DNA of 64,000 nt from contig CM056741.1 of the NCBI GenBank assembly GCA_029851415.1, forward strand, positions 68,748,282-68,812,281, given 5' to 3'. Made by a program: the position numbers and the translations under genes. The stretch comes from Eretmocerus hayati (lineage: Eukaryota; Arthropoda; Insecta; Hymenoptera; Aphelinidae). The notes under the pieces were generated by a model that made no database searches, was not told where the DNA came from, and worked only from the letters and a program-made list of their open reading frames with translations. Every line of letters starts with the position of its first letter. Positions within the stretch are counted from its first letter, which is position 1. Below, piece after piece: positions 10,278-60,341 of this stretch.

Positions 10278-10281
10278 TTAA

Positions 10282-12830: not shown

Positions 12831-13070
12831 ATCCAACCTCCTCCCCGGAGGCAACTTGAATGCGGGATCTGGCGGGACAGATTTTGGATAAGCGTTTGAG
12901 AAGGCGAGTGGAAGAGTGGCGTAACCACCATTATTCCCCCCCGTCCTCCCCGTCGTCGCCACCGCTGCTCTTCAACGTCTAGACCAAGATCTACCTTCGC
13001 CCAAAACCCGTCTCTCGAAAGACCCCGAAAACTGCCTCATAGCAAAACTGGCGTGACCGCCATTACTTAA
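12812..13070 (+). repeat. Conserved module flanking a simple-sequence array, copy b
   Basis: The order cggctacccattatatcc, then ggaggcaacttgaatgcggg, then ccaccgctgctcttcaacg matches 16367-16510 and, in reverse complement, about 3480-3540. A second related sub-block follows (ggcgtaaccaccattatt against ggcgtgaccgccattactt), suggesting an internal duplication. Confidence 0.6.
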
Positions 13071-13771: not shown

Positions 13772-14102
13772 TTGACTCATAAGGGGAACACCAACCTAGT
13801 GGGTCCTGGACCCTGATGAAACTTTGGGAATCTTCTTGTTTTGGTGAGAAATGAACGTACCCAGAAGGGTTTTGTCCTATAGGCTTCCTATCCCAAGATA
13901 CAGCCATGGAAATCAGCATTGTCCATATAGGCTCATGATAAAATGACACATATATGACAACGCTAACCTCCATGACTGTATCTCAGGATAGGAGCCCCAT
14001 TGGACGAAACTCTTTTGGGTACCTTCATTTCTCACCAAAACAAGATTTCCAAAGTTTCGTCAAGATCCAGGACCCGCAAGGTTGGTGCTCCCCTCGTCAG
14101 TT
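13772..14102. repeat. F1 family foldback element, copy 3 (best preserved)
   Basis: Arms at 13772-13950 (inverse) and 13953-14102 (direct) share gaacaccaacctagtgggtcc/acccgcaaggttggtgctc, ggtaccttcatttctcacc and caaaacaaga. The centre is the short catataggctcatgataaaa. The outer ends are roughly tgactcataagggga and tcccctcgtcagt. It lacks coding capacity. Confidence 0.7.
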
Positions 14103-14419
14103 GCATGAAAATGACAGATTCTCTGACCCTTCCTTTTTCCTTGTCCGGAAAAATTGAAAATTCCATCTCGGCCTACTATTTGGTTTTCCGAATCAATGTC
14201 TCATACCTGTATCAAATCACTAGTATGCTCGTAATCTCAGACTCTCATCCAATAAGTCATTTGTTCTCTTATCAGTTTAATAAAAATTACTGCGCAGGAA
14301 ACTTACTATGGGTGCTCAATCATCTGACGAGGAATATCTTGGCCTATTGAAAAACAAGCGTTTTTCTCGAGAATCGGCAGAAAGAGCTACAATACACGCT
14401 GATAACGGGAGCAAATATG

Positions 14420-22784: not shown

Positions 22785-23519
22785 TTACTTAATGAACCAG
22801 TAATTCATCAGCAATCGTTGCCTAGGCAAATTATGACTCTTGAAAGGACTATCGTTATGAGATATGGAAGCGTAGCTACCCTGGTGGAAAAAACAGCGTA
22901 GTACTGCAGTAGTCTACTGTCTGGCTGATCGTACTATTGTAGTAGCTTACTGTCGTACTACTGCAGTAGCCTACTGCAGTAGTACGACCGTAGTCTACTA
23001 CAGTACTACTGAGCGTACTACTGTCGTACTACTGGATAATAGTACTGAGCTGGATTTCGCTGCTGTGTTTACTTTCTGCCCTTGAGAGGATAGAGGCAAA
23101 GAGAAAAAATTATAAAAAGGTGAGATCTCTAGATGAGTTTAGGCTCACTCATGAGGAGCACCTTCGTAAAAGACTTGTGCGCTACTTTTTCAAAATGCTT
23201 CAAACCCATAACATAACATAACCTTCACACGCCAAGCGCGCGCCCGCTCTCCCCGCAAACTCACACAGCAGAAGACAAGAGTCGAACTGTCATGTCGCGG
23301 CCGTACTCATCGTTTTGTTTTGATATGTCGAAGCAACAATTTAACCGTCTTATGTTGATACATTCTGTCGGATTCTGCCATTTGAGTATCAACGATAGGC
23401 TATGGATAACAAAGCCGGTTGTTATTCATGCCGATAAACAACAAAAATGAGGCCCAGATCACGAGCCCCTCGTGGGGGCTCGACGCGTATAAGTAACATT
23501 TGAGCACTAATAGTGAAAG

Positions 23520-23590
23520 TGAGAATTAGCGCAAGTGGCAACAGGTCCGCCTCGCACGCGGGAGGCTCGGGATCGCTTCCCGGTAACGAA
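23520..23590 (+). tRNA. tRNA-like sequence in the left arm (probably a pseudo-tRNA)
   Basis: A-box-like TAGCGCAAGTGG (23527-23538) and B-box-like GGATCGCTTCC (23570-23580) are about 43 bases apart, as in tRNAs. Between them is an anticodon arm with stem tccgc/gcggg and loop ctcgcac. That places CGC after T, resembling an Ala-type anticodon. The T-arm tcggg/cccgg folds with a 7-base loop. The acceptor stem does not pair convincingly. T-runs follow at about 23592, which could end Pol III transcription. Best read as a tRNA-derived block captured in the element, not a working tRNA. Confidence 0.55.
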
Positions 23591-24119
23591 TATTTTTTTT
23601 CTTTTTTTCCCGATTCTGTTTTTGTTTTGCTTTACGCAGGCTTGCACTTTTTTCCTCGGTATCGAAAATGTATTCAATCCTAATTTCATTCATTTACAAT
23701 GTAATTCAAATTTTGACATTCAAGTTTTAATAATCTATATGATTGAATTTTCAAAATATAACCGCTACAGCATATTTTCTAATTCAGTCATGAATTGATG
23801 AGTTACATTTTTTTTTATTCATTTTGATTGAATAAATCCAATCTGCATTTATGAAATATTATTCAAAAGTAGAAAGTAATTAGTTAATTAATTTAAATAT
23901 AATATTTGAAGATGTAAAAATAGCCCGTTAATTCTTCATTGGATTGAGAAATATGCTGTAGCGGTGCCTATATTTATCTCAAAACTTGAATGTCAAAATT
24001 TGAATTACATATATAAATGAATAAAATTAGGATTGAATACATTTTCGATACCGAGGAAAAAAGTGCAAGTCTGCGTAAAGCAAAACAAAAACAGAATCGG
24101 GAAAAAAAGAAAAAAAATA

Positions 24120-24190
24120 TTCGGTTCCGGGAAGCGATCCCGAGCCTCCCGCGTGCGAGGCGGACCCGTTGCCACTTGCGCTAATTCTCA
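24120..24190 (-). tRNA. tRNA-like sequence in the right arm (mirror copy)
   Basis: This is the inverse copy of the left-arm block. Its B box is at 24130-24140 and its A box at 24172-24183, on the minus strand. The two units therefore point toward the centre of the palindrome. Confidence 0.55.
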
Positions 24191-24835
24191 CTTTCACTAT
24201 TTGTGCTCAAATGTTACTTATACGCGTCGAGCCCCCACGAGGGGCTCGTGATCTGGGCCTCATTTTTGTTGTTTATCGGCATGAATAACAACCGGCTTTG
24301 TTATCCATAGCCTATCGTTGATACTCAAATGGCAGAATCCGACAGAATGTATCAACATAAGACGGTTAAATTGTTGCTTCGACATATCAAAACAAAACGA
24401 TGAGTACGGCCGCGACATGACAGTTCGACTCTTGTCTTCTGCTGTGTGAGTTTGCGGGGAGAGCGGGCGCGCGCTTGGCGTGTGAAGGTTATGTTATGTT
24501 ATGAGTTTGAAGCATTTTGAAAAAGTAGCGCAGAAGTCTTTTACGAAGGTGCTCCTCATGAGTGAGCCTAAACTCATCTAGAGATCTCACCCTTTTATAA
24601 TTTTTTCTCTTTTCCTCTATCCTCTCAAGGGCAGAAAGTAAACACAGCAGCGAAATCCAGCTCAGTACTATTATCCAGTAGTACGACAGTAGTACGCTCA
24701 GTAGTACTGTAGTAGACTACGGTCGTACTACTGCAGTAGGCTACTGCAGTAGTACGACAGTAAGCTACTACAGTAGTACGATCAGCCAGACAGTAGACTA
24801 CTGCAGTACTACGCTGTTTTTTCCACCGCAGGGTA

Positions 24836-29409: not shown

Positions 29410-32400
29410 ATGAAGGCCGTTATCGCAGTATGTGTCACATGCCTTATCGGTATTGTAGTTGCCACGCCAGTGGAAAATCTGGGAGAAAAAGTCAGCATCG
29501 TCGAGCAACAGTCTACGGTGGTGCTGACAGACAAAGCTAAATACGAGGAGGAACTGATGCGCAAGCTCAATACAAAGTGCTCGCAAAATGATCTGAGTAG
29601 CTGCGTTATGCTCAAGCTCGTCACGTACATGAATAGGTTACTCAAAAAGGCATCCATTGAATTGACCGATGACATTGAAATCCGCAAAACTAGCCAAGCT
29701 ACCGAGGAGGTTGTGAGCTTCCAATCCTCCGGACGCAGCGGAAGTGACGAGGACTCCGAAGTGTTCAACCTCATCGCCGGCAAATTGTACTCTTTCGTCA
29801 AATCCCGCAGTATCAAGTGGAAATTCCTTCCAGAAGATGACGTCGTCGTTTCTGCCAAAGAAGATGAGAATGGATCCCTCAACCTTGGACTGTCGATAGA
29901 GCGATCTGACAACGCTGTTCAAGATGGTGAGTCAATTTCTAGTGTTCTCCATCTTGTGACTAATTATCGAAAACGGAAACTAACTGCACTTAAGATCATA
30001 TCTCGAAAATTCTGATGACCGGAATGTTGAATCCCCGAGAAAAATATGCGCTGCATTAAAACGATTGGAAATTCCGCTCTGTACAACTACTCATAGATTT
30101 TTCTGGTCATACTGAGAGTTTATCAGCTAAAATTGCTCAAACAGATATTGATCATAGGTATTGAGTTTCAATTCGTTTCTGCTTTAAACACTATAATTCG
30201 AGTTTTTTAGCTGGAGGGTAGATCTGACCGACAATAGTACATTTTGATACGAGGGTGGGAATGTTGGTTTCCGTGCAACGAGTGATATTTTTCGACCCAA
30301 GCCGAAGGCGAGGGTCGGAATCATCCCGAGACTGCGGAAACCACACCGTCCCAGTGTCGAATGATATATCCCCATCTTCTGTACAGGAAATGATTCCTCC
30401 GCACGGTTTCATGGATTATATTTTTCGCACAGCTGATGGAGAGATAGTATTCGATACTCAGATGGGGTGATTTCCGCCCTCGTATCAGAATGTACTATTT
30501 TCATCAGCTGTGTGTTGAACAAAATCAAAAAACCGCCCACACAGGAGATCGAGACCATCTTGTTTAATCAGTTCCTCTCACTTCGATAGTGTATCAAGGT
30601 GATAATGTTGTGACATGCGCAGAAGATTGAACTTGTTAGGAACTCAAATTCTGCGATAGAAAATAGCTCGACAGTATTTTGACAGCAGTCTAAGGTAGGG
30701 TATAGATAAATGTTTAACATTCAATCATTTGAGGTGGGGTCTGATATTAAAATCTTTGCTCGGTTTGTAATCCTCCATCAAATTCGTGTAGTAATCTCAT
30801 GAATGGGTGTACAAAACGAAGATTAGGGATGATTTAACCCTCTGAATTTTTCATGAAATTCAGAGTTCCCAGACTCCGAAAACTTGTACAGCATCATTGG
30901 CGAGTAAGCAATTTACGTAGATAGATTTCTCTAGAGCGAGGAGATAATTCTGGGTAACCTCAAGGTTCTAAGTTCTCCTCAGAATTTGGACTCCCTGTAA
31001 TCAGAGATCCATAAATTTGTTTGGCGTTGGCATGGTTTCCAGAAAAATATTCATCTTTTCTGTCGAAATTAGAGTCCCTATTGGTCGAATTACTCTGCTC
31101 CCAACGTAAAAACATCAATTTGCCCGTAGAATTTTCTAGTTCATAATTAGCAGAATTCGCTAATAAGGGAGCATTCTGACTGGGAATGAAATTCATGCCT
31201 CAAATCACCAGAGCTGTTGAGTGTACGAATGAATGAGGGTTCAACCTCGGATAAAATTCTTCCTTTTTTACGCCGTTTAGTTTTCCAGATAAAATCAATT
31301 ATGATTGAGAAGCAACTATTTACAGAACAGGATATATAATATCCAGGTCATCTCAAAATTTAAAGAGAAACCTAGCCTTAAATTCTTGAATGCTCTCCCG
31401 ATTTTCTCAAAGGATACGACGTAGCGCTCCATCAATTAGTGACGAGTAATTAAATAGATAACATCTCAAAGCTGCGTAGAAGTATGAAACTAGCACTTCT
31501 TGACCGTACAGTGGTTATAAGCAAAAGTTAAGATACCGTAATAATCATTATTTATTTGTTTGGAATATATATGAAAGGAAGTAGGATATGCACTCACATA
31601 TTTATATGTAATACGGCGTTTATAATACTGTTTTTTTTCCTTGGCAACCACTCTTCAAACGATGATGCATCAAATATCTTGCAAGTATTCAAGCGCTCTT
31701 GATTTCGTTTACGATAACTATTTCGGTTGACACCATTATACGAGAGTACTTCTAATGGAAATGTAGTGATGGATCCTGAAAGCAAAGCTTGGTTAATCTA
31801 ATTAGAGCGATCCGTTGACGTGCAATATCACGATTATAATCATTACAAAGAGTAGAACGGAAGAAATTACTTGAGTGTGTTGAATCTTCATGCTCTGATT
31901 CCACTTCATGATAAACAGTTTAAAATACGTAAGTAGCATATCCGATCATCTATCATAGTCAAAATTTCATCTGATTTATTTGTACAATTTTCACAATTGA
32001 GCTTTGAATCAAAATTTTCAACGACCCGAATCTTTTCTCATTCAGCAGCATGATTCCTCATACTCAAACTTTGAAATGGATAATCAACTAGCATGACAAG
32101 ACGAAAATCCGAATTCGACCGATCTTCATAAGAAACCATACATACTGAATTGCAGAATAATCAAGTTTTCATTGATTAACTTTGCAGGCCGAGGCAAGAA
32201 GAACAACATGGGGCCACTCTTAGCCGCTGCCGTTGTCAAAATCGGTCTCGTGGGTGCTCTTGCATTCAAAGGACTGGCTCTTCTTGTAGGAAAAGCCTTG
32301 TTACTCTCAAAGATCGCTCTCCTGCTGGCCGGTATCATTGGTCTCAAGAAACTCTTCTCATCGCAAAAGCACGTAACATACGAGGTGGTGGCCCACCCAC

Positions 32401-32531
32401 ACCATAGTGCCAGTCATGCAATCGAAAGTCATGGACACAGTGACTTTTCGGGAGGCTGGGCAAGGAACTTCCAAGGATCACAGGCTGAATCTGCCCAACA
32501 GATGGCCTACTCTGCCCAAATACCTCAGTGA
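29410..32531 (+). CDS. Osiris-family protein (DUF1676), two coding exons
   Basis: Coding exons are 29410-29926 and 32188-32531. The donor is AAGATG|GTGAGT, the acceptor tttgcag|GCC, in phase 1, giving 286 residues. The start ATG lies four bases after acceptor ttctgttccag; an earlier in-frame ATG would fall in the intron. Residues 1-19 form a signal peptide. A Cys pair follows at 57 and 65, then an acidic middle. RGKK (174-177) leads into a Leu/Ala-rich hydrophobic stretch (about 182-225, ending LLLAGIIGLKKLF). A His-rich segment (about 242-256) precedes AQQMAY (275-280), matching the AQxLAY signature. This order is diagnostic of Osiris proteins, insect-specific secretory or membrane proteins linked to cuticle and epithelial development and normally clustered. 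The exact paralogue is not assignable. No AATAAA appears in the first 1 kb after the stop; one lies at 34227. Confidence 0.93.
30237..30495. mobile_element. Small inverted-repeat element inside the Osiris intron
   Basis: Left end GTACATTTTGATACGAGGG, right end CCCTCGTATCAGAATGTAC, with TA on both sides (30235-30236 and 30496-30497), suggesting a TA duplication. About 259 bp, non-coding. An internal string, aagccgaaggcgagggt, recurs with one change at about 36119 (gagccgaagacgagggt), so more copies probably exist. Confidence 0.75.
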
Positions 32532-43429: not shown

Positions 43430-43939
43430 TGCGACGCTTACAGTTGCATGAAACCCAATTTGCGACACAATTATTCTCGTCCTGAAAACAAGCGATATCG
43501 GAAATTTGCAAGAAAGGGAATCGTAGGTTTTCCCACGTAGATTATGAATCTTTTCCCCAATTGGAGCCTCCAAGACTCATACGCTGCTGGCTAGCATAAA
43601 AACGCGAGAATCGCGGGAAAAACGCAGTTTTAGTGGTTGAACTTGATGAGGATGCATTTTACACAAATTTTTGAGGGAACAAAAGTTGTTGCATTTTTTT
43701 ATACAAATAGGATGATATGACCAGTTTTTCGTAAAACCGAATTGATTAGTGTTTTTTGCCATTTTTGAGGGCTTTTAGTAGATATTTAGGAAATTGGACT
43801 ACGGCAATCGAAAGAGCAGAAAATTTTACGTCGGATTATGTACTTTGGAAATTTGGAAGAAAGATTTTTGGAGGTGATCTAGGGAATGAGAATAGACGAA
43901 AAACTGAAAAAACAGAGAAGAACAGGTAATTCGTGAATT

Positions 43940-45050
43940 CTCGAGGTGTAATCTCGAATGTGCCACCTCGTCCACAATGGGGATACCTTCCTACATTATC
44001 AACCAACTATTTGCCGTGTTCCAGAAGTGCTTAGATACACCTGCTAGACTCTGAGGCCGGTTATAGCGAGTCTTGGGGTCACATTCCGTGCAAAGCTGTG
44101 TGAATCCGATCAAAATCATGAAATCTCAAAGTGTAATCGCGAATGTGCCACCTCGATCACAATGGAATTACCTTTGAACATCAATAACCGACTATTTGCC
44201 GTGTTTCAGGAATGCCGAGATACACCTGCTGGACTCTGAGACCGGTTATAGCGAGTCTTGGGGTCATATTCCGTGCAAAGCCCTATGATTCCGGTCAAAA
44301 TCATGAATTCTCGAGGTGTAATTGCGAATGTGCCACCTCGTCCACAATGGAGTTACCTTTCTACATCATCAATCAACTATTTGCCGTGTTCCAAAAGTGC
44401 GTAGATACACCTGCTGGACTCTGAGACCGGTTAGCGAGTCTTGGGGCCATATTCCGTGCAAAGCCCTGTAAATCCGATCAAAACTATGAATTCTCGAGGT
44501 GTAATCGCGAATGTGCCACCTCGTCCACAATAAAGATACCTTTGTACATTATCAACCAACTGGTTGCCGTGTTCCAGAAGTGCCTAAATACACCTGCTGG
44601 ACTCTGAGACCGGTTATAGCGAGTCTTGGGGTCATATTCCGTGCAAAGCCCTGTAAATCCGATCAAAACTATGAATTCTCGAGGTGTAATCGCGAATGTG
44701 CCACCTCGTCCACAATGGAGTTACCTTTCTACATCATCAATCAACTATTTGCCGTGTTCCAAAAGTGCGTAGATACACCTGCTGGACTCTGAGACCGGTA
44801 ATAGCGAGTTTTAGGGTCAGAGTGCGTGCAAAGCTGTGAGAATCCGTTCAAAATCATGAAATCTCAAGGTGTAATCGCGAATGCGCCACCTCGAACACAA
44901 TGGGAATACCTTTCCACATTATCAACCAAATATTGGCCGTCTTCCAGAAGTGCGTAGATACACCTGCTGGACTCTGAGGGTTCTGGGGCCCGAGTCAATG
45001 TACATCCCGGCAAATCCGATGAAAAGCATGGAATCAATCTTGGGACTTTT
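43940..45050 (+). repeat. Satellite array, left arm (about 6 monomers of ~185 bp)
   Basis: Monomers carry tacacctgctggactctgag, gcgagtcttggggtc and gaattctcgaggtgtaat. The units differ from each other by many substitutions and small deletions, unlike the right arm. Orientation is opposite to the right arm. Confidence 0.92.
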
Positions 45051-45059
45051 TTCCGTAGC

Positions 45060-45710
45060 ACTGACTAGACCAAAATTCCACACCTTTGTCCTTTCTCCAA
45101 TCTCTTCTATGTAAAATGAAGAATGTGGGAGTGGATCAAAAAAATACTTCATGGTTAATGAGGTTGATAATAATCGAATCGACCGACCCAATCCTTGAAT
45201 CGAGAATGAGAAACGTTGGTGCTCGAATATTTATTGAGTTGGAACTGAATAACCCAATCTGCGATCTCGCTCTCAGTGCAGATCACAGAAAAATCAGTTG
45301 GTTCCATAGTGAAAAAGGGGACCAAGGGTGTAGGGATAGTTCAGGGTCTTATGTTCCCATCACTTATCACATCAAATTCCACTCCTCATTACCCGAATGA
45401 AAATACTTCCCAACTTACTGGCAGGGATCTCGCAATTTCCAGTTGGGTTCACAAAAGACGGATCACCATTGATATTCCTTCCACATGAATATTCATTCAT
45501 TCAGCAAAATTTGAACATACAGGTATTCATGATTCCATAGATGGCCACAAATTTTGGATACATTTATGGTTGGTTTAAGCAACATCTGCAACATGCCCGA
45601 GTACGTAACCAACAGGTACAATACTGAAATAGTAAGGCATTGCAAACAAGGTTCATGTGACAGACTTGGGTACCATCGGGAATCGAGACTAGGAACGGAA
45701 AATGACCACA
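45060..45710 (+). repeat. Inner inverted segment, left copy
   Basis: Strings such as tcaaattccactcctcatta, aacatacaggtattcatgat and catgcccgagtacgtaacc recur in reverse complement at about 46930-47590. Similarity is high with scattered substitutions. Confidence 0.85.
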
Positions 45711-45890
45711 AATTCGAAAGAGAGTGATTCTATAAAAAACACAGCCTGTTCTTGATTCACAACAGTAACCGAAAGAATTGTAGAATCTCCTACTTGTTCT
45801 CCAAAAGGTAACGACCAATTATTTTCATTCCGCTAACTCGGACACATCAAGCACAATATAACTAGATAGTATTCTGTCCATCATCCTTAC

Positions 45891-46652
45891 AGTTGACAAC
45901 AATCAACTTCCTCAACTGAGGCGATAGTAGATTTACTCTCTTCTCCCTGATTTTGCGAGTCCGAGACACGATAGGATCTGACAACAAGAACAATCGATGG
46001 AATAGTTCCACATTGGTCGGACCCCTGGAAAGTAATGCGAGAATTCATAAATGCCTTGATATTATACATCATACATAGTCTAGCTACAGATAGGCATAGC
46101 TCCACGAGCAGAATTTTCAGTGGAATTTTTCTTCCATTCAGCTGATATTTATTCACATGTATTATTTGTGTACAAACCCATTGATAGCCAAGAATCTAGC
46201 TTTCATTATCGTCATGCATCGGTATATTGCCAAGGAGTTCGAAAAGTAACAGTAATAATTAAGGGTGAATGAGCACACTACGGGAAATTAGCCATGAATT
46301 CCGAGCTTCGACTTGAAAAAGAGTGAAGCTTGCATCTCATCCGGATTCAGTATTGAGCATTTATCGATTCATTTGTTGGAAGTATGCACATTTCCACACG
46401 AATCGTAGCCCTTATGCATCTCGGTATCCCATCTAAACGATTGCGTGAATATTGAAGCAAAATCTTGACTCAACTATGGCCCAAAAAAAAATTACCACAT
46501 CTTGGCAAAATGAAAAGTACATACCTGGAAAATTTCCTGGTGTGATTCAGTCTGGTGGACTTGACGACTTTATAAGTCGTCTTGAGATCCTCTTCGGATA
46601 ACACTCCCATAGGAATATGGTTAAACTGCATAATTTTGCATGCATGCATCAA
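45891..46652 (-). pseudogene. Decayed spliced gene in the loop of the foldback element
   Basis: Two minus-strand exons fit together. The first, ending at 46525 (tttccag|gtatgt), encodes MQFNHIPMGVLSEEDLKTTY, then a stretch ending HTRKFSR. The second starts at 46024 after acceptor ttactttccag and continues in matching phase with GPTNVELFHRLFLLSDPIVS, ending near a gtaag at 45890. The pattern LSEE, HTRK-SR, N-x-E-L-F, SDP-x-x-S resembles, from memory, a protein family seen repeatedly in arthropod repeat-associated predicted proteins. I cannot name its superfamily or activity. An in-frame stop (taa) just upstream of IYAILMHACK and lack of other exons suggest decay. Its place between the arms suggests it belongs to the element. 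Confidence 0.55.
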
Positions 46653-46929
46653 AATAGCATATATTTATGGTGGAAGCTTGTACCACGAGAGCTTTCCTCC
46701 AGCGATATATCACAGAGATGAACAACTGAGCGCTGGGACCTACCATAGAATTCGCAGGCCTCGCAAACTTGGGAATGGTAACTAATATTTCTTCGAACCA
46801 TATTTATTTGAGTTGGCAAAATTTTTACAGATGACCGTTGACTTTTGAAGAGTTTGTGGGGAATTCCACAGATCTTCTGGCTATTCCTGGCCATTGCCAC
46901 TCAAATCTAGGTAGTGTTTTTGATAGAAT

Positions 46930-47590
46930 AACTTTCATTTAAACTTTCGATTCTAGTCTCGATTCTCAACGGTGCCCAAGTCTGTCACATTAACCTTGCT
47001 CCCAATGCCTCTCTATTTCAGTACTGTACCAGTCGGTTACGTACTCGGGCATGTTGCAGATGTTGCTTGTACCAATCATAAATGTATCCTAAATTCGTGA
47101 TCATATATGGAATCATGAATACCTGTATGTTCAAATTTTGCTGAAGGAATGAATATTCATGTGAAAGGAAAGTCTATGGTGATCCTTTATTTGTGAATCC
47201 AACTGAGAATTGCGAGATCCCCGCCAGTAAGTTAGGAAGTATTTCCATTCGGGTAATGAGGAGTGAAATTTGATGTGATAAGTGATGAGAACAGAAGACC
47301 CTGAACTATCCCTACACCCTTAGTCCCCTTTTTTGCTATGGAACCAACTGATTCTTCTGTGATCTGCAGTGGAAGCAAGGTCGAAGATTGGGTCATTCGG
47401 TTTTAACTCAAGGAACATTCGAGCACCAATGTTCGTCATTCTAAATTCGAGGATTGGGTCGGTAGATTTGATTATTATCAACCTCATTGAGCATGAAGTA
47501 TTTTCTTGATCCACTCCCACATTCTTCATTTTACATGAAAGAGATTGGAGGAAGGACAAGTATGTGGAATTTTGGTCTAGTAAGTGCTAC
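46930..47590 (-). repeat. Inner inverted segment, right copy
   Basis: Reverse-complement partner of 45060-45710. Frames on the minus strand here mirror those on the plus strand of the left copy. Confidence 0.85.
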
Positions 47591-47669
47591 GGGAAGAAAG
47601 TCCCAAGATTGATTTCATGCTTTCATCGGATTTGCCGGGCTGTACATTGACTCTGGCCCTAGAACTCTC

Positions 47670-50600
47670 AGAGTCCAGCAGGTGTATCTACGCACTCCTG
47701 GAACACGGCAAATAGTTGATTGATGATGTAGGAAGGCATCCCCATTGTGGACGAGATGGCACATTCGCGATTACACCTCGAGAATTCATTATTTTGATCG
47801 GATTCACACAGCTTTGCACGGAATATGACCCCAAGACTCGCTATAACCGGTCTCAGAGTCCAGCAGGTGTATCTCGGCATTTCTGAAACACGGCAAATAG
47901 TCGGTTATTGATGTTCAAAGGCAATTCCATTGTGATCGAGGTGGCACATTCGCGATTACACTTTGAGATTTCATGATTTTGATCGGATTCACACAGCTTT
48001 GCACGGAATATGACCCCAAGACTCGCTATAACCGGTCTCAGAGTCCAGCAGGTGTATCTATGCATTTTTGGAACACGGCAAATAGTTGGTTGATGATGTA
48101 GAAAGGTAACTCCTTTGTAGACGAGATTACACATTTGCGATTACACCTCGCGAATTCATGATTTTGACCGGAATCATAGGGCTTTGCACGGAATATGACC
48201 CCAAGACTCGCTATAACCGGTCTCAGAGTCCAGCAGGTGTATCTCGGCATTTCTGAAACACGGCAAATAGTCGGTTATTGATGTTCAAAGGCAATTCCAT
48301 TGTGATCGAGGTGGCACATTCGCGATTACACTTTGAGATTTCATGATTTTGATCGGATTCACACAGCTTTGCACGGAATATGACCCCAAGACTCGCTATA
48401 ACCGGTCTCAGAGTCCAGCAGGTGTATCTACGCATTTTTGGAACACGGCAAATAGTTGGTTGATGATGTAGAAAGGTAACTCCTTTGTGGACGAGATAGC
48501 ACATTTGCGATTACATCTCGAGAATTCATGATTTTGACCGGAATCATAGGGCTTTGCACGGAATATGACCCAAAGACTCGCTATAACCGGTCTCAGAGTC
48601 CAGCAGGTGTATCTCGGCATTTCTGAAACACGGCAAATAGTCGGTTATTGATGTTCAAAGGCAATTCCATTGTGATCGAGGTGGCACATTCGCGATTACA
48701 CTTTGAGATTTCATGATTTTGATCGGATTCACACAGCTTTGCACGGAATATGACCCCAAGACTCGCTATAACCGGTCTCAGAGTCCAGCAGGTGTATCTA
48801 CGCATTTTTGGAACACGGCAAATAGTTGGTTGATGATGTAGAAAGGTAACTCCTTTGTGGACGAGATAGCACATTTGCGATTACATCTCGAGAATTCATG
48901 ATTTTGACCGGAATCATAGGGCTTTGCACGGAATATGACCCCAAGACTCGCTATAACCGGTCTCAGAGTCCAGCAGGTGTATCTCGGCATTTCTGAAACA
49001 CGGCAAATAGTCGGTTATTGATGTTCAAAGGCAATTCCATTGTGATCGAGGTGGCACATTCGCGATTACACTTTGAGATTTCATGATTTTGATCGGATTC
49101 ACACAGCTTTGCACGGAATATGACCCCAAGACTCGCTATAACCGGTCTCAGAGTCCAGCAGGTGTATCTACGCATTTTTGGAACACGGCAAATAGTTGGT
49201 TGATGATGTAGAAAGTTAACTCCTTTGTGGACGAGATAGCACATTTGCGATTACATCTCGAGAATTCATGATTTTGACCGGAATCATAGGGCTTTGCACG
49301 GAATATGACCCCAAGACTCGCTATAACCGGTCTCAGAGTCCAGCAGGTGTATCTCGGCATTTCTGAAACACGGCAAATAGTCGGTTATTGATGTTCAAAG
49401 GCAATTCCATTGTGATCGAGGTGGCACATTCGCGATTACACTTTGAGATTTCATGATTTTGATCGGATTCACACAGCTTTGCACGGAATATGACCCCAAG
49501 ACTCGCTATAACCGGTCTCAGAGTCCAGCAGGTGTATCTATGCATTTTTGGAACACGGCAAATAGTTGGTTGATGATGTAGAAAGGTAACTCCTTTGTAG
49601 ACGAGATTGCACATTTGCGATTACACCTCGCGAATTCATGATTTTGACCGGAATCATAGGGCTTTGCACGGAATATGACCCCAAGACTCGCTATAACCGG
49701 TCTCAGAGTCCAGCAGGTGTATCTCGGCATTTCTGAAACACGGCAAATAGTCGGTTATTGATGTTCAAAGGCAAATCCATTGTGATCGAGGTGGCACATT
49801 CGCGATTACACCTCGAGAATGATAGTTTTGATCGGATTTACAGGGCTTTGCACGAAATATGGCCCCAAGACTCGCTAACCGGTCTCAGAGTCCAGCAGGT
49901 GTATCTACGCATTTTTGGAACACGGCAAATAGTTGGTTGATGATGTAGAAAGGTAACTCCTTTGTGGACGAGATAGCACATTTGCGATTACATCTCGAGA
50001 ATTCATGATTTTGACCGGAATCATAGGGCTTTGCACGGAATATGACCCCAAGACTCGCTATAACCGGTCTCAGAGTCCAGCAGGTGTATCTCGGCATTTC
50101 TGAAACACGGCAAATAGTCGGTTATTGATGTTCAAAGGCAATTCCATTGTGATCGAGGTGGCACATTCGCGATTACACTTTGAGATTTCATGATTTTCAT
50201 CGGATTCACACAGCTTTGCACGGAATATGACCCCAAGACTCGCTATAACCGGTCTCAGAGTCCAGCAGGTGTATCTATGCATTTTTGGAACACGGCAAAT
50301 AGTTGGTTGATGATGTAGAAAGGTAACTCGTTTGTAGACGAGATTACACATTTGCGATTACACCTCGCGAATTCATGATTGTGACCGGAATCATAGGGCT
50401 TTGCACGGAATATGACCCCAAGACTCGCTATAACCGGTCTCAGAGTCCAGCAGGTGTATCTCGGCATTTCTGAAACACGGCAAACAGTCGGTTATTGATG
50501 TTCAGAGGCAATTCCATTGTGATCGTGGTGGCACATTCGCGATTACACTTTGAGATTTCATGATTTTGATCGGATTCACACAGCTTTGCACGGAATATGA

Positions 50601-53600
50601 CCCCAAGACTCGCTATAACCGGTCTCAGAGTCCAGCAGGTGTATCTATGCATTCTTGGAACACGGCAAATAGTTGGTTGATGATGTAGAAAGGTAACTCC
50701 TTTGTAGACGAGATTGCACATTTGCGATTACACCTCGAGAATTCATGATTTTGACCGGAATCATAGGGCTTTGCACGGAATATGACCCCAAGACTCGCTA
50801 TAACCGGTCTCAGAGTCCAGCAGGTGTATCTCGGCATTTCTGAAACACGGCAAATAGTCGGTTATTGATGTTCAAAGGCAATTCCATTGTGATCGAACTG
50901 GCACATTCGCGATTACACTTTGAGATTTCATGATTTTGATCGGATTCACACAGCTTTGCACGGAATATGACCCCAAGACTCGCTATAACCGGTCTCAGAG
51001 TCCAGCAGGTGTATCTATGCATTTTTGGAACACGGCAAATAGTTGGTTGATGATGTAGAAAGGTAACTCCTTTGTAGACGAGATTACACATTTGCGATTA
51101 CACCTCGCGAATTCATGATTTTGACCGGAATCATAGGGCTTTGCACGGAATATGACCCCAAGACTCGCTATAACCGGTCTCAGAGTCCAGCAGGTGTATC
51201 TCGGCATTTCTGAAACACGGCAAATAGTCGGTTATTGATGTTCAAAGGCAAATCCATTGTGATCGAGGTGGCACATTCGCGATTACACTTTGAGATTTCA
51301 TGATTTTGATCGGATTCACACAGCTTTGCACGGAATATGACCCCAAGACTCGCTATAACCGGTCTCAGAGTCCAGCAGGTGTATCTACGCATTTTTGGAA
51401 CACGGCAAATAGTTGGTTGATGATGTAGAAAGGTAACTCCTTTGTGGACGAGATAGCACATTTGCGATTACATCTCGAGAATTCATGATTTTGACCGGAA
51501 TCATAGGGCTTTGCACGGAATATGACCCCAAGACTCGCTATAACCGGTCTCAGAGTCCAGCAGGTGTATCTCGGCATTTCTGAAACACGGCAAATAGTCG
51601 GTTATTGATGTTCAAAGGCAATTCCATTGTGATCGAGGTGGCACATTCGCGATTACACTTTGAGATTTCATGATTTTGATCGGATTCACACAGCTTTGCA
51701 CGGAATATGACCCCAAGACTCGCTATAACCGGTCTCAGAGTCCAGCAGGTGTATCTACGCATTTTTGGAACACGGCAAATAGTTGGTTGATGATGTAGAA
51801 AAGTAACTCCTTTGTGGACGAGATAGCACATTTGCGATTACATCTCGAGGATTCATGATTTTGACCGGAATCATAGGGCTTTGCACGGAATATGACCCCA
51901 AGACTCGCTATAACCGGTCTCAGAGTCCAGCAGGTGTATCTCGGCATTTCTGAAACACGGCAAATAGTCGGTTATTGATGTTCAAAGGCAATTCCATTGT
52001 GATCGAGGTGGCACATTCGCGATTACACTTTGAGATTTCATGATTTTGATCGGATTCACACAGCTTTGCACGGAATATGACCCCAAGACTCGCTATAACC
52101 GGTCTCAGAGTCCAGCAGGTGTATCTACGCATTTTTGGAACACGGCAAATAGTTGGTTGATGATGTAGAAAGGTAACTCCTTTGTAGACGAGATTGCACA
52201 TTTGCGATTACACCTCGAGAATTCATGATTTTGACCGGAATCATAGGGCTTTGCACGGAATATGACCCCAAGACTCGCTATAACCGGTCTCAGAGTCCAG
52301 CAGGTGTATCTCGGCATTTCTGAAACACGGCAAATAGTCGGTTATTGATGTTCAAAGGCAATTCCATTGTGATCGAGGTGGCACATTCGCGATTACACTT
52401 TGAGATTTCATGATTTTGATCGGATTCACACAGCTTTGCACGGAATATGACCCCAAGACTCGCTATAACCGGTCTCAGAGTCCAGCAGGTGTATCTACGC
52501 ATTTTTGGAACACGGCAAATAGTTGGTTGATGATGTAGAAAGGTATTTCCTTTGTGGACGAGATAGCACATTTGCGATTACATCTCGAGAATTCATGATT
52601 TTGACCGGAATCATAGGGCTTTGCACGGAATATGACCCCAAGACTCGCTATAACCGGTCTCAGAGTCCAGCAGGTGTATCTCGGCATTTCTGAAACACGG
52701 CAAATAGTCGGTTATTGATGTTCAAAGGCAATTCCATTGTGATCGAGGTGGCACATTCGCGATTACACTTTGAGATTTCATGATTTTGATCGGATTCACA
52801 CAGCTTTGCACGGAATATGACCCCAAGACTCGCTATAACCGGTCTCAGAGTCCAGCAGGTGTATCTACGCATTTTTGGAACACGGCAAATAGTTGGTTGA
52901 TGATGTAGAAAGGTAACTCCTTTGTGGACGAGATAGCACATTTGCGATTACATCTCGAAAATTCATGATTTTGACCGGAATCATAGGGCTTTGCACGGAA
53001 TATGACCCCAAGACTCGCTATAACCGGTCTCAGAGTCCAGCAGGTGTATCTCGGCATTTCTGAAACACGGCAAATAGTCGGTTATTGATGTTCAAAGGCA
53101 ATTCCATTGTGATCGAGGTGGCACATTCGCGATTACACTTTGAGATTTCATGATTTTGATCGGATTCACACAGCTTTGCACAGAATATGACCCCAAGACT
53201 CGCTATAACCGGTCTCAGAGTCCAGCAGGTGTATCTATGCATTTTTGGAACACGGCAAATAGTTGGTTGATGATGTAGAAAGGTAACTCCTTTGTAGACG
53301 AGATTACACATTTGCGATTACACCTCGCGAATTCATGATTTTGACCGGAATCATAGGGCTTTGCACGGAATATGACCCCAAGACTCGCTATAACCGGTCT
53401 CAGAGTCCAGCAGGTGTATCTCGGCATTTCTGAAACACGGCAAATAGTCGGTTATTGATGTTCAAAGGCAATTCCATTGTGATCGAGGTGGCACATTCGC
53501 GATTACACTTTGAGATTTCATGATTTTGATCGGATTCACACAGCTTTGCACGGAATATGACCCCAAGACTCGCTATAACCGGTCTCAGAGTCCAGCAGGT

Positions 53601-56600
53601 GTATCTACGCATTTTTGGAACACGGCAAATAGTTGGTTGATGATGTAGAAAGGTAACTCCTTTGTGGACGAGATAGCACATTTGCGATTACATCTCGAGA
53701 ATTCATGATTTTGACCGGAATCATAGGGCTTTGCACGGAATATGACCCCAAGACTCGCTATAACCGGTCTCAGAGTCCAGCAGGTGTATCTCGGCATTTC
53801 TGAAACACGGCAAATAGTCGGTTATTGATGTTCAAAGGCAATTCCATTGTGATCGAGGTGGCACATTCGCGATTACACTTTGAGATTTCATGATTTTGAT
53901 CGGATTCACACAGCTTTGCACGGAATATGACCCCAAGACTCGCTATAACCGGTCTCAGAGTCCAGCAGGTGTATCTATGCATTTTTGGAACACGGCAAAT
54001 AGTTGGTTGATGATGTAGAAAGGTAACTCCTTTGTAGACGAGATTGCACATTTGCGATTACACCTCGCGAATTCATGATTTTGACCGGAATCATAGGGCT
54101 TTGCACGGAATATGACCCCAAGACTCGCTATAACCGGTCTCAGAGTTCAGCAGGTGTATCTCGGCATTTCTGAAACACGGCAAATAGTCGGTTATTGATG
54201 TTCAAAGGCAATTCCATTGTGATCGAGGTGGCACATTCGCGATTACACCTCGAGAATTCATAGTTTTGATCGGATTTACAGGGCTTTGCATGAAATATGG
54301 CCCCAAGACTCGCTAACCGGTCTCAGAGTCCAGCAGGTGTATCTACGCATTTTTGGAACACGGCAAATAGTTGGTTGATGATGTAGAAAAGTAACTCCTT
54401 TGTGGACGAGATAGCACATTTGCGATTACATCTCGAGAATTCATGATTTTGACCGGAATCATAGGGCTTTGCACGGAATATGACCCCAAGACTCGCTATA
54501 ACCGGTCTCAGAGTCCAGCAGGTGTATCTCGGCATTTCTGAAACACGGCAAATAGTCGGTTATTGATGTTCAAAGGCAATTCCATTGTGATCGAGGTGGC
54601 ACATTCGCGATTACACTTTGAGATTTCATGATTTTGATCGGATTCACACAGCTTTGCACGGAATATGACCCCAAGACTCGCTATAACCGGTCTCAGAGTC
54701 CAGCAGGTGTATCTATGCATTTTTGGAACACGGCAAATAGTTGGTTGATGATGTAGAAAGGTAGCTCCTTTGTAGACGAGATTACACATTTGCGATTACA
54801 CCTCGCGAATTCATGATTTTGACCGGAATCATAGGGCTTTGCACGGAATATGACCCCAAGACTCGCTATAACCGGTCTCAGAGTCCAGCAGGTGTATCTC
54901 GGCATTTCTGAAACACGGCAAATAGTCGGTTATTGATGTTCAAAGGCAATTCCATTGTGATCGAGGTGGCACATTCGCGATTACACTTTGAGATTTCATG
55001 ATTTTGATCGGATTCACACAGCTTTGCACGGAATATGACCCCAAGACTCGCTATAACCGGTCTCAGAGTCCAGCAGGTGTATCTACGCATTTTTGGAACA
55101 CGGCAAATAGTTGGTTGATGATGTAGAAAGGTAACTCCTTTGTGGACGAGATAGCACATTTGCGATTACATCTCGAGAATTCATGATTTTGACCGGAATC
55201 ATAGGGCTTTGCACGGAATATGACCCCAAGACTCGCTATAACCAGTCTCAGAGTTCAGCAGGTGTATCTCGGCATTTCTGAAACACGGCAAATAGTCGGT
55301 TATTGATGTTCAAAGGCAATTCCATTGTGATCGAGGTGGCACATTCGCGATTACACTTTGAGATTTCATGATTTTGATCGGATTCACACAGCTTTGCACG
55401 GAATATGACCCCAAGACTCGCTATAACCGGTCTCAGAGTCCAGCAGGTGTATCTATGCATTTTTGGAACACGGCAAATAGTTGGTTGATGATGTAGAAAG
55501 GTAACTCCTTTGTAGACGAGATTGCACATTTGCGATTACACCTCGCGAATTCATGATTTTGACCGGAATCATAGGGCTTTGCACGGAATATGACCCCAAG
55601 ACTCGCTATAACCGGTCTCAGAGTCCAGCAGGTGTATCTCGGCATTTCTGAAACACGGCAAATAGTCGGTTATTGATGTTCAAAGGCAATTCCATTGTGA
55701 TCGAGGTGGCACATTCGCGATTACACCTCGAGAATTCATAGTTTTGATCGGATTTACAGGGCTTTGCATGAAATATGGCCCCAAGACTCGCTAACCGGTC
55801 TCAGAGTCCAGCAGGTGTATCTACGCATTTTTGGAACACGGCAAATAGTTGGTTGATGATGTAGAAAGGTAACTCCTTTGTGGACGAGATAGCACATTTG
55901 CGATTACATCTCGAGAATTCATGATTTTGACCGGAATCATAGGGCTTTGCACGGAATATGACCCCAAGACTCGCTATAACCGGTCTCAGAGTCCAGCAGG
56001 TGTATCTCGGCATTTCTGAAACACGGCAAATAGTCGGTTATTGATGTTCAAAGGCAATTCCATTGTGATCGAGGTGGCACATTCGCGATTACACTTTGAG
56101 ATTTCATGATTTTGATCGGATTCACACAGCTTTGCACGGAATATGACCCCAAGACTCGCTATAACCGGTCTCAGAGTCCAGCAGGTGTATCTACGCACTT
56201 TTTGAACACGGCAAATAGTTAATTGATGATGTAGAAAGGTAACTCCATTGTGGACGAGGTGGCACATTCGCAATTACCCCTCGAGAATTCATAGTTTTGA
56301 TCGGATTTACAGGGTTTTACACGGAATATGGCCCCAAGACTCGCTAACCATCTCAGAGTCCAGCAGGTGTATCTACGCACTTTTGGAACACGGCAAATAG
56401 TTGGTTGATGATGTATAAAGGTAACTCCTTTGTAGACGAGATAGCACATTTGCGATTACACCTCGAGAATTCATGATTTTGACCGGAATCATAGGGCTTT
56501 GCACGGAATATGACCCCGAGACTCGCTATAACCGGTCTCAGAGTCCAGCAGGTGCATCTCGGCATTTCTGAAACACGGCAAATAGTCGGTTATTGATGTT

Positions 56601-56830
56601 CAAAGGCAATTCCATTGTGATCGAGGTGGCACATTCGCGATTACACTTTGAGATTTCATGATTTTGATCGGATTCACACAGCTTTGCATGGAATATGACC
56701 CCAAGACTCCCTATAACCAGTCTCCAGAGTCCAGCAGGTGTATCTACGCACGTTTGGGACACGGTAGATGGTTGATTGATGATGTAGGAAGGTATCCTCA
56801 TTGTGAACGAGGTGGCACATTTGCGATTAC
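47670..56830 (-). repeat. Higher-order satellite array, right arm (about 24 dimers of 370 bp)
   Basis: Two alternating ~185-bp monomers form a 370-bp higher-order unit. Type A has gtgtatctcggcatttctga and actttgagatttcatg; type B has gcatttttggaacacgg and gtagaaaggtaactcc. Both share ccccaagactcgctataacc and cagagtccagcaggtg. Dimers are nearly identical, with B subtypes (acgcattt/tcgagaattc against atgcattt/tcgcgaattc). A third shorter monomer variant has agactcgctaaccgg, lacking ata, near 49870, 54312, 55793 and 56342. Short open frames of 70 and 93 codons recur every 370 bp only because the array is homogenised. Confidence 0.96.
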
Positions 56831-56844
56831 ACATCGAGAATTCA

Positions 56845-57345
56845 TGAATTACCCGTTTTTCTCTGTTTTTTTCGGTTCTTCCTCTATTTTCACTCCCTGG
56901 ATCACCTCCAACAATCTTTTTTCTGAGTTTCCAAAGCACATAATCCGGCGTAAAATTGTCTGTTCTTTCGATTGCCGTTATCCAAATTTCAAATTATCCA
57001 CTAAAAGCTCTCCAAAACGGCAAAAAACACCAAAAAATTCGATTTTAAGAAAAACTGATCATATCATCCGGTTTGTATCAAAAAATGCAACAACTTTTGT
57101 TCTCTTAAAAATTCGTGTAAAATGTATCCTCATCAAGTTTAACCACTAAAACTGCGTTTCTTCGCGATTTTTGCGTTTTTATGATAGCTGGCAGCGTATG
57201 AGTCTCGGAAGCTCCAATTGGGAAAAAGATTCATAATCTATGTGGAAAAACCTACGATTCTCCTCCTTGCAAATTTCCGGTATCGCTTGTTCTCGGGGTG
57301 AGAATAATTGTGTCGCAAATCGGGTCTCATGCAACTGTGTGCGAC
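56845..57345 (-). repeat. Outer inverted segment, right copy
   Basis: Reverse complement of about 43430-43935. Shared strings include gatgaggatacatttta-type sequence, aaactgcgtt, caattgggaaaaagattcat and gcaaatttccggtatcgctt. It joins directly to the 3' end of the R1-type retrotransposon. Confidence 0.85.
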
Positions 57346-57912
57346 GTACTTCGGAGAAGACCGTTCTGCTCCTCCGGCTTGGTGAGGTCTCGGTCAGTAT
57401 GGCTTGTCCGTGGAACCCCAAACCATGCCGGGCTGTAATCCGCATCGATACGGGTATCTTCCACCAGCTAAGGCCCTCTTCTCCTTCCCCAATGGCATCG
57501 GCGATTGGATAAGGGAGAGATCCGCGTAACTTAACAATCCAGACCCGGGACCGCACAAGCATTACTCCAGGTCCGGCGGCGTCTCGCGCTCTAGATCAAA
57601 CGGATCTCTTTCCACGACTCGAAGGCCTTGTTGCTCATTGTTTGGTCTTCTTCCGTCTCTTCATTTTTCTTTCTTCGATCTTCGATCTTCTCTCTCTCTT
57701 CTTCCCCCTCCAGTGCATCGTGTTCCTCCTGGAACAATTTGGACCTCCTATCTGAATCGGCAGACTCACTGTGATCCACCTGTTTTGAGGCTCTTACTTC
57801 CCTCTCCTTCTCCTTCTTCCGGTTCATCGCCAGCTTGATGTATCCGGTGACTCCATCCCATGTCCCCTGGTTGCAGAGCAAGTACGGGATGAGGTTCTCA
57901 GGTGTTAGTTAA

Positions 57913-58390
57913 GGAGGCTCGCGCATGTGGTGCCACGCCTAGCGCGGGGCCCCGCGCGCAAGTAGTTAGGCCCTTCTCTTTTCCGATCCGCTCCTGACGC
58001 TACATATAGGTATACTCACAACGCAAGTAGTGCGGCGCAGCGCGCTGCTCCACTCTCTAAACTCACTTTGAACTCAATTTACTCAAAATCTAAGTCGTCA
58101 ACCTATCAATTTTCTTACACCATTGAACGCGCCAGGTGAATTGATATCGATTTATCATCTCATTCTTAATAACGAAGGTTTAGTTGACGCTAGACGCGTG
58201 TGCTCTGTTTAACTTGCCTAGCCCATAAGGGTACGTGTATAAGGATTGTTTTTGCGAAATGGTTTTTCTCGCGAATTTTATCGTCAACCCCCTTGTTTCT
58301 TGGTGGATTATGATTTCTCATTAGTTTATCTATCAATATAAGTCACTTTTACGCAAGTTCACAGTTTAGTTAAAATTTGCGCGAGCCTCC
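57913..58390. mobile_element. 478-bp TTAA-duplication element inside the R1 remnant
   Basis: Flanked by TTAA at 57909-57912 and 58391-58394. The ends are a perfect 13-bp pair, GGAGGCTCGCGCA and TGCGCGAGCCTCC. TTAA duplication points to a piggyBac-superfamily transposase acting in trans. Removing it with one TTAA reconnects the R1 reading frame between KWLDA and LTPENL. No coding sequence. Confidence 0.9.
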
Positions 58391-59038
58391 TTAAGCATCC
58401 AGCCATTTATCCAACTCGCCGCGCTCTCTTCGGGTGTCATTGCACGTGAACAGGGTGTGTCCAGCGTCATTCCAGCTATCCCCGCATGACTGACATGCTG
58501 GGGCTGTCCTCTTCTTGAACCGGATCAGATAGGCACCGACGCAACCGTGATCACTCAGTGCCTGCGTTGTCTGGTGATCTGTCTCTCCGTGGGTGCGTTA
58601 CACCCACTTGGCTACGTCACGGATCAGCCAGTGCGTCCATCTGCCATCTGCAAATGGTGAGTCCCACTCAATTTGCCACTGCTCAAGGGTCGTTTCGTTC
58701 TCGTTGTCGCGGATGATCTCTTCCATCGTTGGGGTGAGCACTTGATCGGCTCCGATCACCTTTTGCCGACCCCAGATTCTCACTCGCTCCGCAACGAGCA
58801 ATTGGATGCGTGGCGTGTCCACCAACACGCAAGCTGCGTCTCCTGACACGGTGCGGTAGGCACGGATGCTCCTCAGAGCTGCTCTCCGGTGGACAGGTCC
58901 CATCCTCCTCTCAATGATGGCCTTCTCTGCTCTCTTGCCTCACACTGGTGCACTGTAGAGTATGACGGAAACGCTCACGGTGTTGAGCAGTTTACGCCTC
59001 TCCTGTTTTGGTCCTCTGATGTTTGGCATCAGCCGTTA

Positions 59039-59317
59039 GGGTGCGTCCACTAATAATACATGTGCATGCATATGCACTGCACACGTGCACATGTGCAGCT
59101 CATAGAACTTGAGCAAAGATTGGAGTCCTCACATCAGAGAATTTCTGAGTTGAACTAGGTTGTGTCTCTGTTCCATTACCCTCTGATCCAAAGCAGAATT
59201 TGACGAGCCTCGGCTGGTTTCGGCTAAAATTTTATGAGCTGCACATGTGCACGTGTGCAATGCATATGAGCAGTGTGCACTGCATATGCATGCATATGCA
59301 TATTTGTGGACACACCC
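59039..59317. mobile_element. 279-bp PIF/Harbinger-like MITE inside the R1 remnant
   Basis: Flanked by TTA at 59036-59038 and 59318-59320. The ends GGGTGCGTCCAC and GTGGACACACCC are an inverted pair with one difference. A 3-bp TWA duplication with GGG-starting ends is the PIF/Harbinger hallmark. Subterminal zones are dense in tgcatatgca, gtgcacatgtgcag and cacgtg palindromes. Removal with one TTA rejoins the R1 frame between VGAAL and RLMPN. Confidence 0.9.
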
Positions 59318-60341
59318 TTAGAGTGCAGCTCCGACCCTGCTTGCCTCCATGGTAGCTTCCTGAATATGCTCCTTGAACAACCACGTACCGTTGAGCCACA
59401 CGCCGAGGTATTTCAACTCAATCTTGCGGGGGATCTCCTGCCTGTTGATGAAGAACCGGGGCAAGTCAAACTTTCTCCGTCTCGTGACCACTATGGCTTC
59501 GCCTTTCTTGACAACGAGCTCTAGAAACCGGCTGATCATCCGACCGTAGACTCGGGTCAGCGCTTCGTTTGCGCATCTACCCAGGAGTTCCTCGTTATCT
59601 GCCCATACTATGAGTCCGCGTCGTCCGCGAAAGCCACAATCACCACTCCTCCAGGTAGTTCGATAGTGAGCAGACTATTGTACTGTGTGTTCCAGTTGAA
59701 TGGACCGGAGACTGATACCTGCCCGATCCCGGCAGACAGCTCTCGAACCTCTTGCCCCTCGTCAGTATCGTACATGAGGGTTCTGTTTCTCAGGTAGTCA
59801 CTCCTTACGGCCAATATGTAGGGGGGGGGGGGGGGCACAATAGCCTGCCTGGGATTTGTAGACAGGCTCCCAGCTAGCACAGTTGGATACGGTCTTGATG
59901 TCCAATGCAATGATGGCGCAGAAGCCTCTTCTTCCTTGGTATATTCCCTACCGCCGATTGTACCCGCTCTTGCACCGTTTCGATTGCATGCACTGTGCTG
60001 TATCCTTTCCAATACCCAAACTGCATTGGCAATAGACCGCCGCTCTCTTCGTAGGCTTCCTCCACCCTGCTGAGCACCATCCTCTCAAAAAACGACTGAA
60101 GTATTGATCTTGCATCCAATGAGATTATTCCCTCATTAATTTACTCACTTGCGTATTTTTACACAACATACCAGAAATGTATTCTACTTTAATTCTGTCA
60201 GCAAAATGGGAATCTATTTCGAAAACGCCGTGCATGTTTCGAGAAAATAAAATTCCACGGGTTGCTACAGAACATAGATAATTTCACTGAATTTACCTTG
60301 TCAATATATAACTCATGAAAGAAGGTAAGGATGAAAGAAGG

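Follow-up and report, generated by a model that had tools for sequence, protein, structure and literature searches.

In Tetris of Drosophila virilis, tandem repeats within the TIRs (TIR-220) became satellite arrays, and the parts of its description consulted here give an arrangement like that of the element reported below, with a flanking domain, tandem repeats of ~220 bp, an inner domain and a middle segment, a variable number of repeats, and the growth within the element of satellite arrays that are large and homogeneous (Dias et al. 2014, PMC4079207). Tetris differs in that, by the same account, it has no conserved ORFs, is flanked by duplications of 8 to 10 bp, is assigned to Mutator, and was amplified in beta-heterochromatin. 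The sections on Galileo that were consulted (Marzo et al. 2013, PMC3573991; PMC3688188) describe long, internally repetitive TIRs in which repeat number changed independently in each arm, secondary transposase sites within the TIR repeats, deletion derivatives, and sequence exchange among copies, all but the secondary sites with likenesses in the present family. Galileo differs in its P-type THAP transposase and its 7-bp duplications, and in those sections its reported repeats number four in Galileo-G and up to three, of ~210 bp, in subfamily F, rather than dozens. Hztransib (PMC1852546) resembles the present family in transposase homology, a 5-bp duplication, and TIRs called long; it differs in its length of 3518 bp, and the passages at hand do not mention a tandem array, whereas the family described here has composite arms of roughly 1.7 to 2 kb that include a 185-bp array. 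The pDv element and the pvB370 satellite of the D. virilis group (PMC9659126), by the available portion of the report a case of satellite DNA derived from the terminal repeat of a class II element, can be likened to the present locus by description only.

Here we describe an element of the parasitoid Eretmocerus hayati within a 64,000-nucleotide stretch of contig CM056741.1 (GCA_029851415.1, forward-strand positions 68,748,282 to 68,812,281), which we call the window and by which all positions are numbered. According to the parts of its report consulted, the 692.1-Mb assembly was built from PacBio HiFi reads with hifiasm and Hi-C (PMC10482854). A preliminary description, made from the sequence alone, had called the element a giant foldback-like transposon of FB/Galileo type and had suggested a possible route from transposon end to satellite DNA. 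Because Tetris has the same arm order and TIR repeats that turned into satellite, the route from TIR to satellite is not new, and in that respect the novelty was overstated. What does stand, provisionally, is that no description of a foldback-type Transib family was found in the literature searched, a scope that lay outside Repbase and most subscription papers, and the portions of the E. hayati genome and arthropod MULE literature consulted likewise contained no description of such an element; in PMC9659126, Transib occurs in the reference list alone. The element differs from Tetris in having a Transib gene, a 5-bp duplication, and one unexpanded arm with a single precursor-like dimer.

The complete element spans 13,905 bp (43437 to 57341), with its gene remnant on the minus strand. 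Self-comparison recovered inverted outer, satellite, and inner parts, and both arms had the part order given in the preliminary description, with an outer domain of ~0.5 kb, a 185-bp array, and an inner domain of ~0.7 kb. The left arm comprises an outer unique domain (43437 to 43933, plus strand), a satellite array (43934 to 44978, minus strand), and an inner unique domain (44979 to 45700, plus strand); the loop, or core, follows (45701 to 46944), and the right arm comprises an inner unique domain (46945 to 47665, minus strand), a satellite array (47666 to 56847, plus strand), and an outer unique domain (56848 to 57341, minus strand). In alignments, the left outer domain and array were 87.7% identical to the right end over 1607 columns, and the array and left inner part were 86.7% identical to the other arm over 1776 columns. 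By domain, arm-to-arm identity was 86.8% for the outer and 88.4% for the inner parts. Inverted arms of such length cannot be chance. With long inverted arms, internal tandem repeats, and a loop between them, the element is foldback type in architecture, a term that is descriptive and denotes a polyphyletic class. An Rfam scan of the window gave no match at gathering scores. Elsewhere in the window, an Osiris-type DUF1676 protein (QAD02_020131) is encoded in two exons at 29410 to 32528 with a 100% match.

The loop contains the spliced gene remnant that had been proposed for it. Two minus-strand exons, a penultimate exon (~46694 to 46525) with one in-frame stop and a GTATGT donor directly after it, and a last exon (46024 to ~45880), are connected by a GT donor, an AG acceptor, and matching phase. 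The two-exon peptide, read from the window letters alone, matched PDB chain 6pqn_A, "Putative DNA-mediated transposase," over 79 residues (E = 1.6e-8), and five further database entries of the 6pqn_A sequence, "DNA-mediated transposase," matched too. We take 6pqn and its sister entries to be the structure of the Helicoverpa zea Transib transposase. A profile search for relatives, aided by three added peptides, found 1847 proteins below threshold, and the best 120 of these were then matched against the window sequence. Every one of the 120 matched the penultimate exon (minus strand, 46724 to 46506; best E, 8.7e-12), 49 of the 120 also matched the last exon (minus strand, 46032 to 45865), and none matched elsewhere in the window at an E value of 0.01. 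A Pfam scan of three full-length relatives detected RAG1 in all three, above the curated cutoff in one (P0138, 30.8 versus 25 bits) and below it in the other two (22.2 and 18 bits). An initial search of protein sequences with the peptide from the window gave 28 candidates, none of which was significant; the P-element Pfam did not match the loop peptides; and none of 15 pattern matches in viral contigs encoded a relative of the loop peptide. The remnant consists of the last ~100 residues with the stop, such that the catalytic part is missing and most of the gene is gone. As a check against nested insertion, Transib-type exons were also present in other copies of the family (L010 to L013, L018, and L023), with an open frame in the penultimate exon of 145 to 146 residues in L011 to L013 and L023 and of 126 residues in L010. 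We conclude, on the basis of homology, that the loop retains the C-terminal part of a Transib (RAG1-like) transposase gene.

The ends of the element are consistent with its gene. Family tips read mostly CACACAG and in some cases CACGGTG and are thus RSS-like in beginning with CAC, as Transib ends do. The right end of the window copy reads CACACAGTTG on the minus strand, and the left end reads CTTACAGTTG, in which CTTAC is a degenerate version of CACAC, the tip of the family. A 5-bp direct repeat, CGACG, flanks the copy on both sides (43432 to 43436 and 57342 to 57346). From the window alone, a longer duplication of 7 to 9 bp (TGCGACG and neighbors) was plausible; the other copies establish CACAC as the tip and 5 bp as the length of the duplication. 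Target duplications of Transib elements are likewise 5 bp in the portions of the reports consulted (PMC4411706, PMC8355894, and PMC1852546).

Identical 5-bp duplications were found in 8 of the 11 end pairs first examined (the window copy, L009 to L014, L021, L015/16, L017/18, and L043/25; L024, with a truncated left outer domain and no tip, was left out of the count). When sites were re-paired at random, 2.64 matches were expected, and 32 of 100000 shuffles reached 8. The mismatched pairs were L012 (CGCCG/CGCCT), L014 (offset by one base), and L043/25 (CGACG/CAACG). Two pairs added later, L023, which matched (CGACG), and the inner pair of L026, which did not, brought the total to 9 of 13. The flanks of the L026 inner pair resemble each other in inverted orientation. 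The left target site was CGNCG in 9 of the first 11 pairs, and CGNCG is a target preference of Transib. Because the duplications follow a motif, the match at the window copy alone carries few bits. We conclude that the family has the transposase homology, the 5-bp target site duplication, and the ends beginning with CAC that are expected of a member of Transib.

Other copies of the element, with the same outer ends and target duplications, exist, as the preliminary description had anticipated in proposing a genome search with the outer ends, and the lack of such copies, which it had named as one ground for refutation, does not apply. When the left 571 bases were compared with the genome, 872 first-look candidates were found, and the 40 that were scored, the window's own included, matched over about 541 to 571 bases at 88 to 100% identity. 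The same part order recurred in the family loci that were fetched. Three complete copies of 7.5 to 8.0 kb (L011, L012, and L013) each consist of an outer domain, an array, an inner domain, a core of ~4.06 kb, and then an inner domain, an array, and an outer domain, with 2.7 to 4.7 monomers in each arm and a larger part of the gene than the window copy has. Their cores exceed the window loop by ~2.83 kb, and the window copy carries an internal deletion scar with a short filler at 46689 to 46699. Among 27 loci compared, this junction was found elsewhere only in L018, part of an unlinked copy (L017/L018) on another chromosome, and the filler was identical. Because the deletion junction is common to two unlinked copies, the deletion derivative itself probably transposed, in trans.

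An outer domain and array were present in inverted orientation at both ends of nine single loci (L009 to L014, L021, L023, and L024) and of two pairs fetched apart (L015/16 and L017/18). One younger subfamily (L010 to L013, L015/16, and L023) had outer domains 94.4 to 98.2% alike, and the old pairs L009 and L014 were 91.0% and 89.8% identical from arm to arm. A survey of the neighborhoods of all 40 scored ends, some of them as 3-kb stretches, found 48 arrays, 46 of which adjoin an outer domain, with a median of 3.65 monomers. Both edges were seen in 31 arrays; 29 of these have 1.7 to 8.7 monomers, and the outliers are L025, with 30.7, and the right arm of the window copy, with 49.6. The label giant therefore suits the 13,905-bp window copy and not the family norm. 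Two further loci, L043 (31.7 monomers) and L044 (17.4 monomers), were added for their satellite and thus constitute a biased sample. L043 and L025 are inverted relative to each other at a distance of 58 kb and share 96% identity over 6.2 kb; they probably represent the arms of a single copy that other DNA has split, although their outer 5-bp sites differ by one base. As that copy is seemingly expanded in both arrays, growth on one side is not a family rule. The monomers of L025 show no dimer period and are ~84% like B and 88 to 89% like A, the two monomer classes of the window copy described below, which indicates that the L025 expansion was independent of that in the window.

The two arrays of the window copy differ in size and homogeneity, as had been noted at the outset. 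TRF reported 5.7 copies of a 185-bp unit on the left (43934 to 44978), an array that is unexpanded, and 49.7 copies (24.8 copies of a 370-bp unit) on the right (47666 to 56847), and the right array amounts to 49.6 monomers in the assembly. The arrays were cut into 6 left (L01 to L06) and 50 right (R01 to R50) monomers, numbered from the inside, with the outermost of each being partial. Right monomers alternate between two classes, A and B; when the edge units are counted, mean identity is ~95% within a class and 86% between the two. R02 to R46 (47854 to 56171, plus strand) form a homogeneous block of ~22.5 A/B dimers, in which 14 of the 23 B and 5 of the 22 A monomers are identical to their consensus and private differences amount to 20 in 8318 bases (0.24%). 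Outside the block, R01, R47, and R50 are clearly diverged, and R48 and R49 are close to A and B, respectively. Variants recur blockwise, as R31 to R38 and R39 to R46 repeat one eight-unit pattern of A variants and a chimeric B unit. Three such chimeras, all on the plus strand, were identified (R12, 49704 to 49885; R36, 54141 to 54323; and R44, 55619 to 55801), each with a B-type first part and an L03-like second part: the first 107 columns are B-like with 0 to 1 differences, and beyond column 107 there are 2 to 3 differences from L03, versus 6 to 7 from R47, 5 to 6 from L02, and 13 to 14 from B.

The A/B dimer was specific to this element among the matches scored. A genome search with the 370-bp dimer gave 372 candidates, of which 39 were scored; 25 matched at 95% or more, all of them inside the window element (right arm, 24; left arm, 1), and the best match outside it was 90%. 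The left-arm match is the single dimer L04-L05 (44054 to 44423, minus strand), which shares 97% identity with the dimer that was amplified. A tree was built from 24 monomers selected among the 56 of the window and from 103 monomers of L009 to L024. In this tree, L05 fell among the B units together with R49 (support, 0.90), L04 fell among the A units together with R48 (0.91), and L03 paired with R47 (0.66). The retained outer monomers R47 to R50 (56172 to 56847, plus strand) are colinear with L03 to L06 of the left arm, and the correspondence of L03 to L05 with R47 to R49 in the tree locates the expansion between R47 and R01. L01 and R01 did not pair in the tree, and thus the inner array edge does not support colinearity. 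L04-L05 and R48-R49 differ at 18 of 370 positions, fewer than the arm divergence predicts (P = 7e-7 at a rate of 12.4% and 6e-6 at 11.6%). That the A/B pair is less diverged than the arms points to inter-arm exchange after insertion, before or during amplification; slower substitution inside arrays would be an alternative. Neither the outer, inner, nor loop DNA contained a convincing source of the 185-bp unit in 28 alignments against shuffles, the best of which (monomer B versus the right inner domain, with 3 of 200 shuffles as good) is unremarkable for 28 tests, and the similarity of the element tip to monomer B was not above that of shuffles.

We consider it very probable that the window copy is an old, nonautonomous foldback-type element of the Transib superfamily in whose right arm an A/B monomer pair was amplified in place. 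A deletion derivative would have been moved in trans by a transposase of the Transib type, with CGACG as its insertion site; as no intact, complete transposase gene was identified among the copies examined, mobilization in trans is a step that we infer. The A/B pair would then have arisen in the window copy and become common to both arms, for which interarm gene conversion is the probable mechanism. Once most of the divergence between the arms had accumulated, the pair may have been amplified in blocks by unequal exchange or a comparable process, in the right arm only, so that the edge monomers and the unexpanded left arm were left behind. Rolling-circle amplification with reinsertion is an alternative to in-place unequal exchange or conversion. 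The arms diverge by 13.2% in the outer and 11.6% in the inner parts, similar to their divergence from other old copies, and the right array is far more uniform (0.24%) than the age of the insertion implies, indicating that amplification or homogenization was recent. Judged from these divergences, the amplification looks far younger than the insertion, and the recent expansion of one arm (49.6 versus 5.7 monomers) that the preliminary description suggested accords with both figures. Homogenization can make an old array look young, and the timing is not absolute.

It is also conceivable that expansion of the array preceded insertion and that a deletion then shortened the left arm, and a probable other single copy with 31.7 and 30.7 monomers in arms 96% alike indicates that both arrays of one copy can be long. 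We regard this order of events as unlikely, as L03 to L06 and R47 to R50 are colinear edge monomers, the left arm has one A/B pair only, and 0.24% private change in the right array stands against 12 to 13% between the arms. A lower probability still attaches to the window copy being a chimera produced by ectopic recombination of two family members, chimeras of a kind described for Galileo in the sections consulted. Such an origin would fit arms that, at 86.8 to 88.4% identity, are no closer to each other than to other old copies. It is opposed by the block common to both arms (L03 to L05 and R47 to R49), absent from the 103 other monomers, by the old pairs L009 and L014, which are similarly divergent at matching and nearly matching sites, respectively, and by the identical CGACG on both sides, a weak argument alone given the motif.

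Arrays of near-identical units are the classic case of assembly failure, and on that ground the great length of the right array, or the inverted arrangement of the arms, might be artifactual. We consider this very improbable: the assembly, in the parts of its report consulted, is from HiFi reads and hifiasm (PMC10482854), the inverted layout recurs in nine single loci and two pairs, private variants and chimeric units are dispersed through the right array, and the dimer is confined to the window element among the scored matches. Least probable of all is that the element belongs to FB (Mutator) or to Galileo (P superfamily) proper, since the outer/tandem/inner order of Tetris and the internally repetitive TIRs of Galileo are both present but the gene remnant is Transib type and the duplications are 5 bp, mostly CGNCG, rather than 8 to 10 bp (Tetris) or 7 bp (Galileo), which contradicts membership in FB/Mutator and Galileo/P and leaves of the original FB/Galileo assignment the foldback-like architecture.

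Foldback TIRs with internal arrays have been documented for Mutator-like and P-like elements, and Transib is a third, unrelated superfamily; its repeat-bearing composite ends suggest convergence. A further, doubtful proposal has two parts, which we hold only jointly: that in a foldback Transib lineage the 185-bp TIR array might serve as a bank of extra putative transposase-binding sites, and that selection or the action of the transposase might thereby make the family a recurrent generator of satellites, with arrays running away independently and the precursor-like dimer kept at this locus. The homogeneous right array, at 9.2 kb, is still bounded by both TIR domains. The locus is an unusually clean before-and-after pair for the birth of a satellite, with both states in one insertion: a left arm with a six-monomer array and a single A/B pair, and a right arm with about 22 copies of that pair. 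Formation of the dimer (a higher-order repeat), decay of the array edges, and conversion between arms are directly readable at this locus and testable in relatives.

The Transib-superfamily foldback element (window 43437-57341) is directly followed on its right by a stretch of higher GC content (window 57347-60084). Judged by eye, the minus strand of this stretch carries reading frames that resemble reverse transcriptase, and a Pfam search of its reading frames returned no match above family cut-off. The insertion site of the foldback element may lie next to or within a non-LTR retroelement. About 11 kb to the left of the element lies a two-exon Osiris-type (DUF1676) gene (window 29410-32528), and none of the 120 Osiris-type proteins listed gave a further match in the window at E 0.01.

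A second foldback-like palindrome of ~1.96 kb was found at window 22877-24835, with the ends TACCCTG...CAGGGTA and with arms that are 92% alike and contain numerous short CAGTAG-type repeats. BLAST detected no similarity between this palindrome and the Transib element, and no target duplication was obvious by eye. A shorter palindrome of ~640 bp (window 19730-20371; arms 79% alike) adjoins a reading frame that appeared gag-like by eye (window 19267-19716). Several related short inverted repeats, ~69-88% alike and with arms resembling GAGCACCAACCTTGCGGGTCCTGGATC, occupy window 8898-14109 and were judged by eye to be a MITE-like family. A transposase remnant at window 9641-9976 matched Pfam DDE_Tnp_1_7 (E 2.7e-7), which we take to be a piggyBac-type transposase.

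Expanded monomer arrays were also found elsewhere in the Transib foldback family. Two loci, L043 (C3:68902700-68910699; 31.7 monomers) and L025 (C3:68951429-68961428; 30.7 monomers), are inverted arms separated by 58 kb that share 96% identity across 6.2 kb and the tip CACGGTGTTGATG, and they are probably a single copy in which both arrays expanded. Their monomer type differs from that of the window copy. Another enlarged array, of 17.4 monomers, adjoins an outer domain at L044 (C2:70401900-70406899). At L026 (C1:130542501-130550500), a second, small inverted outer-array pair sits ~3 kb inward of the left end of another member. The sequences flanking this small pair resemble each other in inverted orientation, and the two 5-bp sites of the pair differ.

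Members L010-L013, L015/L016 and L023, whose outer domains are 94.4-98.2% alike, make up a younger subfamily, and the C-terminal Transib exon is open wherever it was checked (L010-L013 and L023). We therefore conclude that activity of the Transib foldback family is more recent than the window copy.
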